Part shown: positions 1 to 41,812 of the stretch, piece by piece
Position numbering within the stretch: the first letter of the stretch is position 1
Layout: the number at the start of each line of letters is the position of its first letter
Source of the DNA: a virus
IMG/VR virus record: IMGVR_UViG_3300046500_000147
Coordinates: 1 to 41,812 of that record
Strand: one strand, 5' to 3'
DNA length: 41,812 nt
Position numbers and translations under genes: made by a program
The notes under the pieces: model-generated
Database searches by the model: none
Told to the model about the DNA's origin: nothing
What the model saw: only the letters and a program-made list of their open reading frames with translations

Positions 1-127
1 AGGGGATCAAAAGCTACGCCGAGGTTACGCCGAGAGGAGACTATGTCATTTGATGCCCGCGAGGCCAAGCAACTACAGCCAGGCCAACACTTTACCATTT
101 CCGACTGCCCGGGGCTCCGATTGGAGG
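1..127. repeat. Terminal direct repeat, left copy (circular contig overlap)
   Basis: Bases 1-127 are identical to 41686-41812, including the start of the integrase gene. An exact 127-base end overlap equals a common assembler k-mer length, so I read it as the overlap of a circular contig rather than a biological terminal repeat. The genome is then a 41,685-bp circle and the integrase is intact across the junction. Confidence 0.9.
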
Positions 128-1335
128 CCTCGGCCTCGGCCAAGTCGTGGACGTACCGCTACAAGAGCCCGGTCGATGCCCGCATGCGCCAGGTAAAGAT
201 TGGCGAGTGGCCGAAGATGTCGCAGCATGCGGCCATCACCGAATGGGAAAAGCTGCGCGACATCCGTGTGGCTGGGCGCGACCCGGCCGCGGAGCGGCGC
301 GCTGAGCGACAACGGGAGAAGGAAGAGTTGGCTAAGGCCCGCGAGCAAGAGTCGCGTCGGCTGACTGTGCGCTCGTTGTGCACGCTGTACCTGGAAGGCC
401 ATGTCGACCGCAGCAGGAAGGAGAAGAGCGCTGCCGAGGCGCGGCGTACGCTCACCCGCGTGCTGGACGAACATCCGGACTTCGCAGACCGGGACCCTTC
501 TACGGTCACCCGCTCGGTGGCGTTCAGCCTGCTCGAGCATTACCTCGATACGCCGGTCCAGGCCGGCAGAATCCGCGCTGAGCTGGGCTCGACGTGGGAC
601 TATGGTCACGACGCCGGCAAGCTGGATGAAGAGGTGCCGAACTGGTGGCGCCAGATCATGCGCGGCAAACTGCGCAGCAAGGGGCGCGTGCGCGAGGGCG
701 AGGCAATCGGCACGGCAAAGCGCGTGCTGAATCCGGAAGAAATCGGCAATCTGATCCGCTGGCTGCCGAATTTTTCCCGGCTGGTCGAGGACGTGGTCAC
801 GCTCTACATGTGGACCTGCACCCGGGGCAGCGAGATCCTCGAGATGGAAGTCGCGGACGTCACGCGCGAAGGTGATGGGCTATGGTGGACGGTGCCGAAG
901 GCAAAGACAAAGAATGCTTGGCGCGACAACGCAACAGACCTGCGCGTGCCCTTGGTGGGCCGGGCCGAGGCGATCGTGCAGCGGCGGATCGAGCTGGTGA
1001 AGTCGGGCTACCTATTCCCGTCCGAAGGGCGCAGTGGCCACGTGGAGCAGAAGACGATCAGCGCAATGGTGTGGATGCACCAGCCGTACGCGAAGACTCG
1101 GCCGGAATACCAGCGCGCCAGGTTGCCGGTGTCGCACTGGTCAGTGCACGACCTGCGGCGCACTGGGCGCACACAGCTGGCGGCGCTGGGGTGTCCTGAT
1201 GAGGTGGCGGAAGCGGTGCTGGGGCACATGCCGAGCGGGATTGCAGGGGTGTATAACCGGCACCGCTATGACCAGGAGCGGCGGGAATGGTTGGCCCGCC
1301 TGAGCGAGCATTACGAGAAGCTTGCGAAATTATGA
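43..1335 (+). CDS. int: P4-type tyrosine recombinase integrase (DUF4102 arm-binding)
   Basis: This 430-aa integrase should carry out site-specific integration and excision of the phage circle. The N-terminal ~80 residues match the DUF4102 arm-binding domain of P4-like integrases. A core-binding region (~110-200) follows, then the catalytic domain with the expected residues: R261 (CTRGSEIL), H369-x-x-R372 (VHDLRR), H395 (LGHMP) and nucleophile Y404 (VYNRH). Length fits the family. The ATG has a clear GAGGAGA ribosome site, and two TACGCC motifs lie just upstream at 15 and 26. The 3' end overlaps the convergent alpA-like gene by 6 bp. The probable attP lies directly upstream. Confidence 0.95.
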   Translation: MSFDAREAKQLQPGQHFTISDCPGLRLEASASAKSWTYRYKSPVDARMRQVKIGEWPKMSQHAAITEWEKLRDIRVAGRDPAAERRAERQREKEELAKAREQESRRLTVRSLCTLYLEGHVDRSRKEKSAAEARRTLTRVLDEHPDFADRDPSTVTRSVAFSLLEHYLDTPVQAGRIRAELGSTWDYGHDAGKLDEEVPNWWRQIMRGKLRSKGRVREGEAIGTAKRVLNPEEIGNLIRWLPNFSRLVEDVVTLYMWTCTRGSEILEMEVADVTREGDGLWWTVPKAKTKNAWRDNATDLRVPLVGRAEAIVQRRIELVKSGYLFPSEGRSGHVEQKTISAMVWMHQPYAKTRPEYQRARLPVSHWSVHDLRRTGRTQLAALGCPDEVAEAVLGHMPSGIAGVYNRHRYDQERREWLARLSEHYEKLAKL

Positions 1336-5613: not shown

Positions 5614-6327
5614 TCACGCCACGAGCTGCGCCGCCGCGGGAAGGTTGATTGGCGGCGGCGTCAGCTCGTCGAAGTCGCCCATGTCGAGGTCGCGCATCAG
5701 GAAGTCGCGGAAGGCGTCGACACCATCGTTTTCGATCTCGTACTCGACGGAACGATGGAATGTGGTCGATATCGGGCCCGGTGTGCCGACCACATATAGC
5801 CGGCGCCGTTCGCCATCCGGCGGCAACGCCCGCGACGAATCTGCGAGCAGGATGAAGTTGGTTCGGTTGGGGCGGCGCACTGCGGCTCGCCCAGCGGTGC
5901 TCTGCATCATGTCTCTCACCGTGATCAGTCCTTTGAGGCGGTCCAGGTAGCCCGGCGATAGATCTCCGTCGATGATCATCAGGCGCGTTCCAACGGGCCA
6001 GCTGGCGATCGTATCGAGCGGCCGCATGTACGTGCGGGCACCGCCATCTTCGTAGAGCTCCATGACGATGCGTTCGAAGAATAGCCGTTTCCCGGCCCCT
6101 TCCGGTCCTGCAATGACCAGCGCGCGCGACATCTTCGCGCCAGGGTTGCGCAGCGGGTAGGCCAGCCAGCGCATGATCCACAGGCATCTGTCTTCGTCGA
6201 AATCGCACAGGTACAGGAGCAGGGCTTTGATGTTGGCGTAGTTGACGGGCTGGTGGTGGGTTCGGTCGGTGAGCGCCGCGAGCGCTGCCCTGACGACTCC
6301 GCGAATTTTCAGGACATAATTTTTCAT
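5614..6327 (-). CDS. Degenerate DUF5906/D5-like helicase paralogue (pseudo-ATPase)
   Basis: 237 aa, clearly homologous to the C-terminal ATPase of the phage's own primase-helicase (13401-16130). IMRWLAYPLRNPGAKM (51-66) matches ILRWLAYPLQHPGAKM there, and the alignment runs on to LFFERIV/LFFQDVL. Key residues are lost: Walker A reads GPEGAGKR (74-81) with Arg where Ser/Thr is needed; Walker B reads LMIIDGD rather than LFMLFEEV, losing the acidic pair; the sensor Asn region reads LLADSS. The GERRRL arginine region persists. There is no primase half. The frame is fully open, so it looks maintained, not decaying. It may bind helicase subunits or DNA as a regulator; ATP hydrolysis is unlikely. 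Confidence 0.8.
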   Translation of the reverse strand: MKNYVLKIRGVVRAALAALTDRTHHQPVNYANIKALLLYLCDFDEDRCLWIMRWLAYPLRNPGAKMSRALVIAGPEGAGKRLFFERIVMELYEDGGARTYMRPLDTIASWPVGTRLMIIDGDLSPGYLDRLKGLITVRDMMQSTAGRAAVRRPNRTNFILLADSSRALPPDGERRRLYVVGTPGPISTTFHRSVEYEIENDGVDAFRDFLMRDLDMGDFDELTPPPINLPAAAQLVA

Positions 6328-13175: not shown

Positions 13176-13414
13176 TGGCCGGCCAATTCTCTCCGGCGAC
13201 TTTATCCATGCAAATGTCGGGCATGTACACCCCCAACCTTGAAACAATTTTAGCCGCTCGTCCACACGATACGATTGGGCAACCGCAGCCAGTGCACGCG
13301 GGCGGCATCGAACGCGTCAATAGTCCGCGCGAAAAGGCTGCAATGCTGGCGCGCCTAACGATCCAGCTGGCGATGCTGGGCGATGAACAGGAGGCCTGCG
13401 ATGGCCACGCTTGA
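13175..13414 (+). CDS. Small hypothetical protein between CII-like and primase-helicase (79 aa)
   Basis: 79 aa, unrecognised. The ATG shares its A with the previous stop (TAATG) and the end overlaps the primase-helicase start by 14 bp, so it is coupled on both sides. The C-terminal helix (PREKAAMLARLTIQLAMLGD) is the only clear element; the rest looks flexible. A replication accessory is a guess from position. Confidence 0.6.
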   Translation: MAGQFSPATLSMQMSGMYTPNLETILAARPHDTIGQPQPVHAGGIERVNSPREKAAMLARLTIQLAMLGDEQEACDGHA

Positions 13415-16130
13415 CCACATCATCGCCCAGATGCGGGCCGAAGGCTTGCCCGCGCTGCCGGACGGGCATCCGGTCCTCGATGGCAAACACCATAAGTTCG
13501 GGCCGAAGAAAAAGGCCTGGTATGCGCTGCGCGAGATGAAAGTGGAGGGCAGGGTGCTCGGCATCTGCGGCGCGTTCGGCGTCTGGCAGGGCGATGACAA
13601 CGGCGCGATCCCGGTCACGATCGACTGGGAGGGTGTGACGCCGCAAGAGCGCGCCGCGGCCGAGCAGAAGCAGGCGGAACAGCAGCGCGCCGTCGAGGAA
13701 CAGCGGCGACGCGAAGCGGAGCTGGCCGCCAATCGGGCACGCGAAGAGTGGCGGGTCGCGGTCGAGTCGGCGCAGCACGGCTACCTGGAGCGCAAGCGCA
13801 TCGGCCACGAGGCCACGCGCGTCTCGAGCAAGGGCGCGCTGCTGGTCCCGGCGCGCAAGTACAGCCGGGACGGCGCCGTCATGGCGGCGCTGCAGAAGAT
13901 CTGGCCGGACGGCAGCAAGCGGTTCAGCAGCGGCTGCGACATGGTCGGCGCGTGTTGCCTGCTCGGCACCATCGACGATGACACGCCCGTCATCGGGGTC
14001 GCCGAGGGCTACGCCACCGGCGAGACCGTGCGCATGGCCCTGGACTTCGGCATCCCGGTCATGGTCGCATTCAACGCCAACAACCTGCTGCCCGTGGCGC
14101 GCCAGCTGCGCCAAGACTTCCCGCACGCCCACTTGCTGTTCCTGGCCGACGACGATGCGCGCATGGCGGCGCGGCTGCGCGAGGCGCTGCTCAAGGACTA
14201 CGAGGTCGAGTGGGAGCCGGTGATCGACGACGCCGACCACCGGCTGGAGGCGAGCACCGGCGACCTGGTCACCGTGCGCGCCCGCTGGCGCCGAGACGCC
14301 ACCGGTACCGACTACATCGAGGCCGACATCCGAGCCGGCCGCAGCATCAAGACCCGTATCTTCCGAAATGCAGGCGTCTCGTGCTCACGCGCCGCCGTGG
14401 CGGAAGTTGGTAATGCATCGGTGGTGTGGCCGCGGTTCGCCGACCGGTCCGACGATAAGTGGTCCGACTTCAACGATCTGTTCTTGGCCGAGTCGCTCGA
14501 CGCGGTGCGCGACCAGGTGCAGGACGCGCTCTCCCGCGCCCTCTCGCAGGAGAGCGCGCCGAGCGACGAGGCCAGCATCCCGGCGCATTTCGACGAGGCG
14601 CCGGCGCCGGTCGCACCCTCAGCAGACCCGGCAGCGGAGGAGGCGGCCGCGATGCGTGTGCCGACGCTGGAGGTGCTGCTGTCGCACTTCTGCCTGATCT
14701 ACCCGACCACCGACGTGTGGGACAGCCTGCGCAAGCAGCGCCTGAAGCGCTCGGCCTTCACCGCCTGGGTAGGGAAAGAGCTGGCTGTGCAGTGGGAGAA
14801 GGATCCGAAGCGCCGCACCATCCTGCGCGAGTCGCTGCCAACCCTCGTCGGCGGCCGCGCCGTCGAAGGGGGAGCGGGGGGCGGCAAGCTGGGCGAGATG
14901 CTCGACAACCTGACGCTGCTGCGCGGGACCGAGACGGTGTGGGACGCGATCGGGCAGCAGGTGATGTCGCTTGGCGCCGTGCGTGCCGACTATACCGCCG
15001 AGCTGACTTCGAAGTGGCAGGAGCATGCCCAGCGCAAGACCATCGAGGCCAGGAACCTGGTGTTCGACCCAACCCAGCAGGCCGATCCGGTCACCCACGT
15101 GAACATCTTCGGCGGCTGGCCGCTGACGCCGAAGGACCGCCCTGACCTGGTAGGCCCGATCCTCGCGCTCCTAGCCTCGCTCTGCGAAGCGGAGGACAAG
15201 GCAGCCGAATGTGTGGAGTGGATCCTGCGCTGGCTGGCTTATCCGCTGCAGCACCCTGGCGCCAAGATGCAAACCGCGCTGCTGGTCTTCGGCGAGAAGC
15301 AGGGCACCGGCAAGTCGCTGTTCTTCCAGGATGTGCTGTTGCCGATCTACGGCGAGTACGGCGGCGTGGCCAGCCAACACCAGCTGGACTCCACCTTCAC
15401 GGCCTGGCGCAGCCGCAAGCTGTTCATGCTCTTCGAGGAGGTGCTCTCCCGGGATGACCGCTACAGCCACAACGGCACGCTCAAGTACATGATCACCGGC
15501 AAGAGCATGAGCATCAACCAGAAGAATCTGCCGGAGCGCGACGAGAAGAACCACATGAACAGTGCGTTCCTCTCGAACGAGCCGCAGCCGATCCCGATCG
15601 AGCTCGAGGACAGGCGCTTCATGGTGATCGAGGCACGGCGCAAGCAGGCGAAGGAGTTCTACGACAGCGTCCAGGCCGCGATCGCCGCCGGCGGTTGCGA
15701 GGCCTTCTACCACTTCCTGCTGAACCTGCCGCTGGAAGACTTCAACGAACACACCAAGCCGCCGATGACGCTGGCCAAGGAGCGCGTGATCGAGTTCGGC
15801 CTGAACAGCTGGATGAGCTTCCACCGGGCCTGGAAGGATGGCTACCTGGACGCGCCGTACTGTTCTTGCCTCTCGGAAGACCTCTACATCATGTACAAGC
15901 GCTGGTGCGACAAGAGTGGAGAAAAGCCACTCACTCTGTGCAAGTTCGCCGGCCTGATTGCCAGCCGCGAGCACAAGGCGAAGAAGAGCGTCGCGGTCGA
16001 CAGTAAGCATAAGAAGACGAGGATGGTGTTCGTCGTTGAAAACCCTGACCACCCGGACGACCTGGAGGCGCAGATAGCCAAGTTCAGGAAGCTGGGTGAC
16101 GTCCGTGCGGACCGGGCATTGCAGGGTTGA
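13401..16130 (+). CDS. Replicative primase-helicase (TOPRIM primase + DUF5906 helicase)
   Basis: 909 aa from the ATG at 13401, which has AGGAGG upstream; an in-frame ATG at 13383 is less good. The N-terminal part carries a TOPRIM-type primase region: VIGVAEGYATGETVRMAL (Glu ~202) and HLLFLADDD (acidic triad ~250-252). After a linker comes a D5-like/DUF5906 SF3 helicase: RWLAYPLQHPGAKM, Walker A GEKQGTGKS (~631-639), Walker B LFMLFEEV, sensor NSAFLSNEPQ and arginine region EDRRFMVIEA. It should prime and unwind phage DNA at its origin. The iteron cluster begins in its last codons. A degenerate copy of the helicase half is at 5614-6327. Confidence 0.93.
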   Translation: MATLDHIIAQMRAEGLPALPDGHPVLDGKHHKFGPKKKAWYALREMKVEGRVLGICGAFGVWQGDDNGAIPVTIDWEGVTPQERAAAEQKQAEQQRAVEEQRRREAELAANRAREEWRVAVESAQHGYLERKRIGHEATRVSSKGALLVPARKYSRDGAVMAALQKIWPDGSKRFSSGCDMVGACCLLGTIDDDTPVIGVAEGYATGETVRMALDFGIPVMVAFNANNLLPVARQLRQDFPHAHLLFLADDDARMAARLREALLKDYEVEWEPVIDDADHRLEASTGDLVTVRARWRRDATGTDYIEADIRAGRSIKTRIFRNAGVSCSRAAVAEVGNASVVWPRFADRSDDKWSDFNDLFLAESLDAVRDQVQDALSRALSQESAPSDEASIPAHFDEAPAPVAPSADPAAEEAAAMRVPTLEVLLSHFCLIYPTTDVWDSLRKQRLKRSAFTAWVGKELAVQWEKDPKRRTILRESLPTLVGGRAVEGGAGGGKLGEMLDNLTLLRGTETVWDAIGQQVMSLGAVRADYTAELTSKWQEHAQRKTIEARNLVFDPTQQADPVTHVNIFGGWPLTPKDRPDLVGPILALLASLCEAEDKAAECVEWILRWLAYPLQHPGAKMQTALLVFGEKQGTGKSLFFQDVLLPIYGEYGGVASQHQLDSTFTAWRSRKLFMLFEEVLSRDDRYSHNGTLKYMITGKSMSINQKNLPERDEKNHMNSAFLSNEPQPIPIELEDRRFMVIEARRKQAKEFYDSVQAAIAAGGCEAFYHFLLNLPLEDFNEHTKPPMTLAKERVIEFGLNSWMSFHRAWKDGYLDAPYCSCLSEDLYIMYKRWCDKSGEKPLTLCKFAGLIASREHKAKKSVAVDSKHKKTRMVFVVENPDHPDDLEAQIAKFRKLGDVRADRALQG

Positions 16131-38786: not shown

Positions 38787-39110
38787 TCACCTTGCGGCTG
38801 TCATGACCAGGACGTGCGCGACCACCAGGGTGGCGAGCAACGCCATCCAAGCCGCCAGGGGACGTGGCCTGCCGGCGAACACGAAAGCGCTGGCCCCGAA
38901 GACGACAGCGGGGCCAACCCAGACAGCCAGGCGCAGCGCGTTCAGGCGCGCATCGCCCTCGCAGACGTCGATCGGGCAGGCGCTCGCGCGACGGCAGGCG
39001 AACAAGTGCGCGCATAGCAGCTCGCCCACCTTGTCGGCCACGACCAGGCTGACGAAGCCGAACAGGGCGAATACTAGGCCGGCGCCAAGTCGCTTGACTC
39101 TCTGGATCAT
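38787..39110 (-). CDS. Small membrane protein downstream of Tae4 (candidate immunity protein)
   Basis: 107 aa, start in an ATGA overlap with the Tae4 stop. Three hydrophobic segments: ~8-26 (LGAGLVFALFGFVSLVVAD), ~59-78 (LAVWVGPAVVFGASAFVFAG) and ~85-104. A Cys-rich stretch between the first two (LCAHLFACRRASACPIDVC) could lie in the periplasm. T6SS amidase effectors are normally followed by an immunity gene; known Tai4 proteins are soluble periplasmic proteins with a signal peptide, which this is not. Immunity is inferred from gene order alone; a membrane accessory is the alternative. Confidence 0.65.
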   Translation of the reverse strand: MIQRVKRLGAGLVFALFGFVSLVVADKVGELLCAHLFACRRASACPIDVCEGDARLNALRLAVWVGPAVVFGASAFVFAGRPRPLAAWMALLATLVVAHVLVMTAAR

Positions 39111-39724
39111 TTGACCTCCCAGAACAAGATCTCGGTCGACCGACCGAGATCCGAATATCCCCAGGCCGTGCCGGCGCCGAGCGAGTTCAGGCCCAGGCGC
39201 CGCCCGACCGTCGAGAAGAAGCTCATGCCGGTCGCCGTCAGCCTGGACCCATTCCACAGGTCGATATGGTCGCCGGAGGGCCGGTCGCTCGCCTTCTCCC
39301 CTGCATTCCTGGCCCAGTAGTTCGCAAAGTACACGATCCCGGTCTTGCTGCGGATCTTGTCCTGCCAGTCCGCGCCCGTCACCTTCTCTGGCCACCTGGG
39401 CAGGCCACAGAAAGGCTGTAACTTGAGCCATTCCGCCAACTGGGAAGCCAGGGAGGCGGCGGGCAGGCCATTCACCGCCACCGCGGCACCGCGGAACGAC
39501 TTCATTTGGACGCCGGCGCCGTGGAGGGAGACCGACACCTTGATCGCGCACTGGTTGTCGTAGCCTTGCGGCGGTCTGCCGGTCTTGGGGTCGACGTAGG
39601 GGTGGCCACCAGGATAGGAAGCCCAGAGCTTGGCAAAGGTCACCGGCTCAACCTGGACGCTGCAGACCGAATCCCGAACAGTGTTGGTGCGGATCCGGGC
39701 CTGCTGTATCAGCGCCTTACCCAT
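39107..39724 (-). CDS. tae4: Type VI secretion amidase effector, Tae4 family
   Basis: 205 aa. Tae4 enzymes cut the peptide stems of peptidoglycan (gamma-D-Glu to mDAP bond) in the periplasm of a rival cell. Core: FAKLWASYPG, then YDNQCAIKVSVSLHGAGVQM with catalytic C59, a helix ASLASQLAEWL, GIVYFANYW, and GDHIDLWNGSRLT with H153 and D155. The C-terminal ILFWEVK is typical. No signal peptide, as expected for a T6SS cargo effector. It overlaps the PAAR gene by 8 bp and the membrane gene by 4 bp. Not part of the phage lysis set, which is complete elsewhere. Confidence 0.88.
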   Translation of the reverse strand: MGKALIQQARIRTNTVRDSVCSVQVEPVTFAKLWASYPGGHPYVDPKTGRPPQGYDNQCAIKVSVSLHGAGVQMKSFRGAAVAVNGLPAASLASQLAEWLKLQPFCGLPRWPEKVTGADWQDKIRSKTGIVYFANYWARNAGEKASDRPSGDHIDLWNGSRLTATGMSFFSTVGRRLGLNSLGAGTAWGYSDLGRSTEILFWEVK

Positions 39725-40277
39725 TCATTCTCCCGTCGATCATCCGTGCCAGCGCCTCGTCGCCCCACAGGACCGTGTATTCGTCCTCGCCGTGCGTGTC
39801 AATGCGCGGCAGCAGCCCGCCCGCCCCGACGCGGCCGGAGAACGTGCGCCCGTCCATTGTCTCGATGTAATACGGCACGCCCTCGATCGGCGGCGCCATC
39901 AGCCGCGGCTGCTCGTCATAGATGAGGATCTGTGCCGAAGCGGCTCCCAGTGAGCTCGACCGGCGCGCAACCTCGTCCGGAACTAGGGCGAACAGCTGAA
40001 ACTTCACTGTCTGCTCCGCGATCAGCTTGGGTATGGGACTGCAGTTGCAGATGCACAGGTCATCGCTCAGCGCGACCTCCCTGCCGTTGAGTTGCTGGGG
40101 CATCCGCGGCGGGACGCATTGAATGGCGCCCGTAATGCCGCAGACAGGACAGTCGACAGGATCGCCGTCGCGCGCCAGAGGAGCGCCGTCGAGCGTGTAC
40201 CAGGTGGCTGACGCCCTCACGGTGCCGCCCGCCGTGGTCTTTGCTCCTGCCCTGATGTGATATCGCCGCTGGATCAT
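39717..40277 (-). CDS. PAAR-domain T6SS spike-tip protein with effector-adaptor extension
   Basis: 186 aa from the ATG at 40277 (GAGG upstream). The N-terminal ~90 residues are a PAAR domain: RRYHIRAGAKTTAGGTVRAS, LARDGDPVDCPVCG, GREVALSDDLCICNC; it caps the VgrG spike of a type VI secretion system. The C-terminal part (ILIYDEQPRLM, VPYYIETMDGRTFSGRVGAG, DEYTVLWGDEA) has the transthyretin-like extension often attached to PAAR proteins that carry cargo. It overlaps the Tae4 gene, so tip and cargo are made together. It is not a phage tail tip by sequence. Confidence 0.88.
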   Translation of the reverse strand: MIQRRYHIRAGAKTTAGGTVRASATWYTLDGAPLARDGDPVDCPVCGITGAIQCVPPRMPQQLNGREVALSDDLCICNCSPIPKLIAEQTVKFQLFALVPDEVARRSSSLGAASAQILIYDEQPRLMAPPIEGVPYYIETMDGRTFSGRVGAGGLLPRIDTHGEDEYTVLWGDEALARMIDGRMNG

Positions 40278-40338
40278 CGCTGCCTCGACGTTGATGAGGC
40301 ATGGTCGCAGTGTTGGGTTTACGGCAAGTTGTTTACGG

Positions 40339-40554
40339 TCAACCGGATGCCGGTGGCAGATCAACGGCGCGGCGCCGGCCAGGCTCGGCCAGCACACGGC
40401 AGGTAACCGCGAAGCCAGCTCCACGTTGCTCGAGGAAGGTGGCCGCAGCTTCGCGGCCCTGGTGCTCGAGCAAGACTAGCGCCTGGTCGACGGTAGCGGC
40501 GAGGCTGGTGTTCGGGCGGTCCGCGCCACCTCGGCGTGCGATTGGAATGTCCAT
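40339..40554 (-). CDS. Small protein divergent from imuA, leader gene of the PAAR-Tae4 block (71 aa)
   Basis: 71 aa, MDIPIARRGGADRPNTSLAA and VDQALVLLEHQGREAAATFL, then AVTCRVLAEPGRRRA. Reads as a small folded alpha/beta protein; unrecognised. Its start is 71 bp left of the LexA box that also faces imuA. It is 61 bp from the PAAR gene, so one transcript is likely. Possibly an SOS-region small protein; no function assigned. Confidence 0.6.
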   Translation of the reverse strand: MDIPIARRGGADRPNTSLAATVDQALVLLEHQGREAAATFLEQRGAGFAVTCRVLAEPGRRRAVDLPPASG

Positions 40555-40621
40555 GGCGCCATGGTGCCGTAGCGCGTTGGTAGCCCGGTGAGATTGCTCA
40601 AGTGTTAAAACAATTCTTGCT

Positions 40622-40643
40622 ATACTGTATGCGCATACAGTAT
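40622..40643. promoter_or_regulatory. LexA/SOS box between imuA and the PAAR-Tae4 block
   Basis: A perfect 22-bp palindrome with the consensus core CTGTATGCGCATACAG (40625-40640, CTGT-N8-ACAG). TATACT (40621-40626), a good -10 for the rightward imuA promoter, overlaps the box. The site lies in the 103-bp divergent gap and could control both directions; only the imuA side has a clear -10. Confidence 0.9.
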
Positions 40644-40657
40644 TTCAGGACATCCGC

Positions 40658-41410
40658 ATGACTCCTGCCCCTTCGGCTCAGCAGCTCGAAGCGCTGCATC
40701 CTTCGCTATGGCGTGCCTCCCAGCTGGCCCGCAGCCACACGCCTACTGTCGACACCGGGTTTCCAAGTTTGTCGCGTCAGCTGCCGGGTGGCGGGTGGCC
40801 GAAGGGCACGCTGGTCGACCTGCTCGTCCAGCAGTCGGGCATCGGAGAGATGCGACTCGTCGCGCCCGCACTGGCGGCCGTGGCGAAGCGCCGCATTGTG
40901 CTCCTGCAGCCGCCGCACATGCCCCAAGCGCTGGCCTTGGCCGCGATGGGCGTACCGCCTGAGTCTGCGCTTTGGCTCCGGCCAGAGAGAACTGCGGATG
41001 CGTTGTGGGCCGCCGAGCAGGTGCTGCGCAGCGGTGGGTGTGGGGCCCTGCTGTTCTGGCCCGGGCAGAGCTCAAACAGCGCGCGCCAACAGCACGTTCG
41101 CGCCGACAGCCTGCGCCGCCTGCACTTGGCCGCGCAGCAGGGCGAGACGCTGTTCTTCGTCTTCCGGCCACTGGGCGCCGAGGTCGACGCTTCGCCAGCG
41201 CCTCTGCGCTTGAGCGTGCGGCCGGCACCTGGTGGGATCAATGTTGGGTTCGTGAAGCGCCAGGGACCCCAGCGTGACGAGGCGCTGTTCCTACCGATGA
41301 CGATCACTCCGGCTCGTCACATCCAGCCGCAGCGGCATGCGATCCCAGATCGGTCAGAGCCGGCTCAGGCTGCCGCGCGAGGCGTCCGCGCGGACACGAC
41401 CGAGGCGTAG
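40658..41410 (+). CDS. imuA: ImuA, RecA-like SOS mutagenesis protein
   Basis: 250 aa, full length. LSRQLPGGGWPKGTLVDLLV, QQSGIGEMRLVAPAL, VLLQPPHMPQALALAAMGVP, DALWAAEQVLRSGGCGALLF and RLHLAAQQGETLFFVFRP follow the ImuA family from end to end. As usual the ATP site is degenerate. In bacteria ImuA acts with ImuB and DnaE2 in SOS translesion synthesis and binds RecA-related partners. Neither partner is encoded here, so it would work with host ImuB/DnaE2 or act alone. It sits behind a perfect LexA box and next to attP, a typical site for added cargo. Confidence 0.92.
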   Translation: MTPAPSAQQLEALHPSLWRASQLARSHTPTVDTGFPSLSRQLPGGGWPKGTLVDLLVQQSGIGEMRLVAPALAAVAKRRIVLLQPPHMPQALALAAMGVPPESALWLRPERTADALWAAEQVLRSGGCGALLFWPGQSSNSARQQHVRADSLRRLHLAAQQGETLFFVFRPLGAEVDASPAPLRLSVRPAPGGINVGFVKRQGPQRDEALFLPMTITPARHIQPQRHAIPDRSEPAQAAARGVRADTTEA

Positions 41411-41685
41411 GTTTTGGCGTAACTTCTAGAAATACTGCCAAAGCCTCATAGGGGAATACGCCGATGCATCATGGGGGTGTGCTTGCTTTTCTCGGCGGTG
41501 GTAAGTGATTGATCTAGCGGCATTTCTTTATCTAACTGCATGATTCTATTGGTGGTTTGCTGTTCGGCCTGCTTTCGCCGTTCTAGTCACTACACATCAC
41601 AACAAGTCACTACACTTCATCAAATGGCGTAGGTTTTTCAAAGTTCTGCTGAACAACTTACGCTACAATTCCGCGGCGGCGTAGG
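41404..41685. other. Putative attP region with TACGCC motif array and 11-bp direct repeats
   Basis: The 275-bp stretch between imuA and the integrase has no gene. It holds repeated GGCGTA/TACGCC hexamers: + orientation at 41404, 41416, 41626 and 41678; - orientation at 41457, then at 15 and 26 across the circle junction. The 11-mer AGTCACTACAC occurs at 41585-41595 and 41605-41615, 20 bp apart. Short repeats of this kind beside an integrase fit arm-type integrase or AlpA binding sites flanking an attachment core. No tRNA 3' end is recognisable, so the core is not identified. A possible -10 box TACAAT (41664-41669) could serve the integrase. Seen: the repeats. Inferred: the att function. Confidence 0.55.
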
Positions 41686-41812
41686 AGGGGATCAAAAGCT
41701 ACGCCGAGGTTACGCCGAGAGGAGACTATGTCATTTGATGCCCGCGAGGCCAAGCAACTACAGCCAGGCCAACACTTTACCATTTCCGACTGCCCGGGGC
41801 TCCGATTGGAGG
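41686..41812. repeat. Terminal direct repeat, right copy
   Basis: Exact duplicate of bases 1-127. The truncated integrase start seen here (ATG at 41728) is the same gene as at position 43, not a second integrase. Confidence 0.9.

Follow-up and report, generated by a model that had tools for sequence, protein, structure and literature searches.

A putative LexA-controlled solo imuA gene at the integration end of temperate phages of Massilia-like hosts

Which genes are placed under the SOS response by a LexA-type box that lies between a DNA-damage-tolerance gene and genes for interbacterial attack? The box is found in a 41,812-nucleotide stretch of DNA, analysed here at full length and hereafter called the window, which is a virus record of IMG/VR with ends identical over 127 bp; the box-bearing gap therefore lies inside a phage genome. 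A preliminary description had reported a perfect 22-bp box with a CTGT-N8-ACAG core overlapped by TATACT, in the divergent gap between imuA and a T6SS-type gene block, and palindrome and motif searches bore this out. The identities given there for ImuA, PAAR and Tae4 were confirmed by matches to NF033429, PF05488 and PF14113, respectively (Table 1). It had also been proposed that DNA damage raises ImuA and perhaps a divergently encoded 71-residue protein and the PAAR-Tae4 operon, which would link interbacterial attack to SOS.

Table 1. Features of the window discussed in the text
Feature	Position	Strand	Basis or remark
Small protein after tae4, candidate immunity protein	38787..39110	-	phrog_24899 1.2e-4, no function given
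Tae4-family amidase, T6SS-type cargo, neighbour	39107..39724	-	PF14113 1.7e-20
PAAR-motif protein, T6SS-type cargo, neighbour	39717..40277	-	PF05488 5.5e-12
Amidase-effector cassette leader AACTTGCCGTAAACCCA	40314..40330	-	common to cassette-bearing loci only
71-aa protein, divergent partner gene	40339..40554	-	alignment; conserved small-protein family
Extended -10 TGcTATACT of imuA promoter	40618..40626	+	sequence; consensus of phage loci
LexA operator (predicted)	40622..40643	.	perfect 22-bp palindrome ATACTGTATGCGCATACAGTAT, core CTGT-N8-ACAG at 40625-40640
imuA, 250 aa, phage-borne, no imuB after	40658..41410	+	NF033429 E 3e-64
attP	41466..41541	-	core GCATCAT 41466-41472; phage-carried mutS 5' end (MQLDKEMPLDQSLTTAEKSKHTPMM...)
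Terminal direct repeat	41686..41812	.	exact copy of 1-127 (assembly overlap of circular genome)
Tyrosine integrase	43..1335	+	PF00589, PF13356

The box and the imuA promoter

The palindrome ATACTGTATGCGCATACAGTAT is the longest of the window, the runners-up being 16 bp long, and its core CTGTATGCGCATACAG is the sole exact CTGT-N8-ACAG there. The bare consensus is too loose to carry much meaning; with one mismatch allowed in its 8 bases, we counted 6 sites versus 11.9 expected in the window, which is not significant. The 12-base pattern TACTGT-N8-ACAGTA is present without mismatch, and shuffled sequences yield 0.2 sites even at two mismatches.

TATACT (40621-40626) overlaps the operator, and TG at 40618-40619 completes an extended -10 element, whose consensus across 33 phage loci is TGnTATACTGTA. 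This element emerged by comparison of loci, a sigma-70 scan having found no full promoter in either direction, and it points toward imuA alone. As imuA starts 15 bp past TACTGT-N8-ACAGTA and TATACT overlaps the box, the operator sits on or next to a damage-response promoter.

We then turned to the host group. In 12 Massilia genomes, TACTGT-N8-ACAGTA occurs at 95 sites, versus 10 for the reversed control pattern. It precedes dnaE2, dinB, imuA and a few others in three Massilia/Janthinobacterium genomes, the genes being named by sequence inspection, and of the 34 host imuA copies listed, 26 have an exact CTGT-N8-ACAG ahead of the gene. By both its palindromic form and its recurrence at host SOS genes, the box is of the beta/gamma-proteobacterial LexA operator type. 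Since it matches the operator found at host SOS genes, we assign it to the host LexA class, and LexA is predicted to bind it. The position of the box, the conservation of the operator and the composition of the host regulon strongly support the proposed LexA control of imuA, which we consider very likely on the strength of these sequence comparisons.

The phage-borne imuA and its recurrence

The exact terminal repeat of 127 bp, where the genome was probably cut at an assembly k-mer overlap, indicates a circular phage genome of 41,685 bp and therefore a phage-borne imuA. On this circle, imuA is followed by attP and then by the integrase gene. Neither imuB nor dnaE2 was found downstream of imuA in the window, attP with its mutS 5' end and then the integrase gene being there instead, and the locus is thus not an imuA-imuB-dnaE2 cassette with the three genes in one operon. 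The first mutS codons are carried in reverse in attP (MQLDKEMPLDQSLTTAEKSKHTPMM), with the start codon at 41541, and relatives of the window integrase are encoded directly beside the mutS start in Massilia, Janthinobacterium and one Comamonadaceae genome. The 5' end of mutS is thus the very probable integration site, where the phage would supply a replacement in-frame start and upstream region; such integration would therefore place imuA at the other prophage end. These relatives also point to a Massilia-like soil bacterium as host. Integration into the host imuA gene, suspected from the location of imuA beside attP, was rejected: what attP carries is the 5' end of mutS, and tRNA sites serve for attachment in the other phages. 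The integrase of one cassette-bearing locus (L144) turned out to be a different enzyme, with 23% identity to that of the window. In a Massilia alkalitolerans sequence (L020, 9556-9770), an N separates two copies of the mutS 5' segment, each with its att core, a pattern that tandem insertions or the joining of scaffolds could leave. Elsewhere in the window, two frames on opposite strands (5614-6327, minus; 13383-16130, plus) share matches to DUF5906/primase-type profiles, that of the first falling under the Pfam threshold.

The window protein scored 216 bits against NF033429, whose curated cut-off is 150, and thus belongs to the ImuA family. Sixteen phage ImuA sequences form one clade (99/92) separate from Massilia host ImuA; the placement of a seventeenth (L107) is unsure owing to its pairing with a long branch. 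In the hosts, imuB comes directly after imuA, but it was found behind none of the phage copies examined. Pairwise dN/dS values among phage imuA copies range from 0.10 to 0.24 by a simple counting method, those of the more distant pairs being rough values with dS > 1, which points to purifying selection on the phage gene. As expected of a moron, imuA has its own operator-promoter, lies inside the phage circle and is carried by only some relatives, being absent from seven viral records with related integrases.

Among viral contigs fetched by ImuA sequence alone, the box lies upstream of imuA in 7 out of 7, and in 16 of 17 imuA loci once prophage copies from host genomes and the window are added. 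The box-to-start spacing is mostly 13-18 bp in phage loci, and most host imuA genes likewise show 16 bp. Two loci deviate: in L107 the box is 366 bp upstream, behind another ORF, and L108 has no exact box. We found imuA in 60 of 62 Massilia genomes, about a quarter of which have more than one match, including some fragments. The extra full-length copies that we examined are prophage-end copies, most with an upstream box and none with imuB behind. A tRNA 3' end or an att sequence of the mutS type is found no more than a few hundred bases from most extra copies; on the downstream sides of L103 and L107, we could recognise none. The integrases of imuA phages vary in position and kind, and therefore the module is not bound to one phage type. 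Altogether, sequence comparisons identify solo imuA behind a putative LexA operator as a recurrent phage module at prophage ends, with several att sites.

A scan of viral contigs for TATACTGT-N8-ACAGTATTTC retrieved 77 contigs, of which only the cargo is informative, given that they were chosen by operator; as named by sequence inspection, imuA is the largest class of cargo (25 contigs), and UmuD-like proteins account for 5. No phage ImuA match was obtained in the 50,697 phage records of INPHARED, and the open-access literature searched likewise yielded no phage-borne ImuA, be it solo with a divergent partner or otherwise.

Other small genes were seen behind this predicted operator in seven loci on viral contigs (L114, L117, L131, L132, L164, L171 and L181), including an unnamed 79-aa family, and by sequence inspection the next gene in L181 is integrase-like. 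The sequence TTGAGCTAGATCAA, which resembles an FNR/Anr-type site (TTGAT-N4-ATCAA), is found just before the operator in five loci (L106, L070, L112, L126 and L161) and is absent in the window. Truncated imuA remnants occur in one genome (G001; L044 and L046); one of them, L044, retains a good LexA box and a stop, which suggests a decayed prophage copy.

The divergent side of the operator

The 71-aa protein belongs to a family of proteins of about 60-80 residues, whose aligned conserved core ends in RV[LIM]..P..RR, and we regard the ORF as a real gene of this family on the basis of that alignment and of its conservation next to the box. Searched with the family profile, 36 of 38 phage loci have a member no farther than 1.6 kb from imuA, and the five host imuA loci have none alongside. 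The gene is usually the divergent neighbour, with its start about 55-112 bp from the box (68 bp in the window), and family members also lie opposite the box where the cargo is not imuA (L135, L164 and L171). The protein has no match in Pfam, NCBIfam or PHROGs, and the same holds for the relatives examined. Its AlphaFold2 model is helical and modest (mean pLDDT 73.7), without a fold match in the PDB; the second half gives the impression of being HTH-like. LexA control of this gene is possible, but the conserved promoter element points the other way, toward imuA.

PAAR and Tae4 are encoded beyond the 71-aa gene as seen from the box, and the gene after tae4 might, judging by position alone, code for an immunity protein. 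Between the 71-aa gene and the PAAR gene sits a 17-bp leader, AACTTGCnGTAAACCCA. With up to two mismatches, the same leader directly precedes the cassette in the window and four other loci (L105, L137, L144 and L176), and it was seen in none of the remaining loci scanned. Amidase/immunity-type pairs occur near the box in 6 of 38 loci, and in five of the 38 the pair separates the box from the 71-aa family gene (L105, L137, L144, L162 and L176). Four of these have BPSL0067-family amidase-type genes (L105, L137, L162 and L176, the latter named via similarity to the amidase of L137). These genes are followed by an STY0301-family protein in L105 and L176, and by a similar small secreted-type protein in L137 and L162; BPSL0067/STY0301 would form a T6SS effector-immunity pair. 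The fifth locus, L144, has Tae4 with Rap1a.

Because the leader occurs only with amidase cassettes, the cassette seems to travel as a unit with its own start region. In view of this separate leader between the 71-aa gene and the PAAR gene, PAAR-Tae4 is unlikely to be controlled directly by LexA; transcription could conceivably read through from the 71-aa gene. In seven other imuA phages, found by sequence, the box is kept and no PAAR-Tae4 is present in the stretches examined, which extend up to about 5 kb upstream. The earlier reading of the locus thus holds for the imuA arm and appears weak for the PAAR-Tae4 arm, where the separate leader speaks against a link between SOS and attack, although the recurrence of amidase/immunity pairs by the box speaks for some link.

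Role of the module and related systems

We consider it rather probable that the window is a temperate phage of a Massilia-like host that carries imuA as a one-gene, LexA-controlled SOS cargo at its integration end, which would aid the host ImuB-DnaE2. In the lysogen, host LexA bound to the 22-bp operator would cover the extended -10 element and keep the phage imuA off. Upon damage, activation of RecA would lead to LexA cleavage, and phage ImuA would be produced together with the products of host imuA, dnaE2 and dinB, around prophage induction. ImuA is a RecA homologue devoid of ATPase (Walker) motifs that acts through ImuB (PMC6511836; PMC11791113), and no Walker A motif was found in the window protein. 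Phage ImuA, RecA-like and non-enzymatic, would most likely join host ImuB-DnaE2 and raise translesion synthesis; as the phage has no imuB or dnaE2 of its own, its ImuA would rely on host partners, induced by the same signal. On damaged DNA, this would benefit the lysogen or the phage during its replication. The divergent 71-aa protein is a conserved partner that may share the operator.

Of the 133 positions nearly invariant in host ImuA, 95 are retained in phage ImuA, including 13 of 14 in the region 120-149, which fits continued use of the original binding surfaces. The C-terminal tail, from residue 210 on, is the least retained part, with 4 of 14 host-conserved columns. In yeast two-hybrid assays, mycobacterial ImuA' apparently no longer bound ImuB once its 40 C-terminal residues had been deleted (PMC11791113); as the tail is mostly not kept, some phage ImuA proteins may therefore not bind ImuB. 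This divergent tail led us to take seriously the alternative that phage ImuA, once induced by SOS, modulates RecA or host ImuA instead of acting within the mutasome. By binding RecA filaments or competing for the ImuB RecA-like binding motif, it would tune the cleavage of LexA or of the phage repressor and the timing of induction. The kinship with RecA without Walker motifs, the carriage of imuA without imuB and the loss in phage copies of precisely the host-conserved tail are in keeping with such modulation, but the positions retained elsewhere in the protein argue against it, and we hold it to be unlikely. We are more doubtful still that, in Massilia-type prophages, solo ImuA and its 71-aa partner form a phage-specific SOS module that sets the RecA/ImuB balance at induction instead of serving the usual translesion synthesis, with mutS-integrating members also taking over the mutS upstream region. 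If true, a mutS-integrating phage would be one element touching both mismatch repair and damage-induced mutagenesis.

Other explanations concern the operator and the origin of the gene. The box might drive both arms, SOS also raising the 71-aa protein and PAAR-Tae4, which is compatible with control of imuA as proposed above and finds some support in the conserved location of the 71-aa gene close to the box and in the amidase/immunity pairs inserted between them in five loci. The amidase operon of the window nevertheless has its own leader, no promoter toward PAAR-Tae4 was found, let alone a conserved one, and PAAR-Tae4 was not found in other imuA phages, and SOS induction of PAAR-Tae4 appears quite unlikely to us. 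It is even less probable that the locus is a LexA-controlled antirepressor module, in which ImuA or the 71-aa protein would lift the phage repressor like Tum or GfoA/GftA. Such antirepressors are known outside the immunity region (PMC3121763), and the 71-aa family consists of small, helical proteins encoded next to the operator; however, ImuA is a conserved DNA-damage-tolerance protein that does not resemble an antirepressor, the conserved promoter element faces away from the 71-aa gene, and no phage repressor was identified in the window. Finally, imuA is often located at the ends of viral contigs, as would host DNA caught at a prophage edge by assembly or imprecise trimming. This explanation is hardly credible and was rejected: the circle closes exactly, over 127 bp, through imuA, attP and the integrase gene, phage ImuA proteins form a separate clade, and host imuA of the same species is found at different loci, with imuB behind.

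On the reading of imuA as SOS cargo aiding host ImuB-DnaE2, a lone mutasome subunit would have spread among temperate phages, under the damage switch of the host and under purifying selection. Carriage of ImuA without ImuB and DnaE2 turns what ImuA does into a testable question, and the module offers a defined, conserved small-protein family for study. Plasmid mutasome genes can speed host evolution: the LexA-controlled imuABC genes of plasmid pRalta of Cupriavidus taiwanensis raise mutation in a new host (PMC4151985). The phage module likewise involves the ImuA family, a CTGT-N8-ACAG directly upstream and a mobile element in Betaproteobacteria, but it differs by its temperate phage vehicle, imuA alone, a separate ImuA lineage, the 71-aa partner and its att-end position. 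Prophages of Acinetobacter baumannii encode umuD and umuC homologues (PMC3978071) and are similar in carrying damage-induced error-prone-repair genes, induction being a prediction in our case; those genes are Pol V-type and under UmuDAb, whereas here ImuA would be under LexA. Coliphage 186 and the Gifsy phages carry LexA-controlled antirepressor genes, tum and gfoA/gftA, respectively (PMC3121763). Those phage genes and imuA alike lie behind a host LexA box and away from the immunity region, but the imuA product is a DNA-damage-tolerance protein. Lastly, SpyCI islands integrate in the 5' end of mutL in Streptococcus pyogenes (PMC4129442) and, like the present phage, are mobile elements that target the 5' end of a mismatch-repair gene; here the gene is mutS, and the in-frame replacement 5' end supplied by the phage should keep it intact, with phage sequence upstream.
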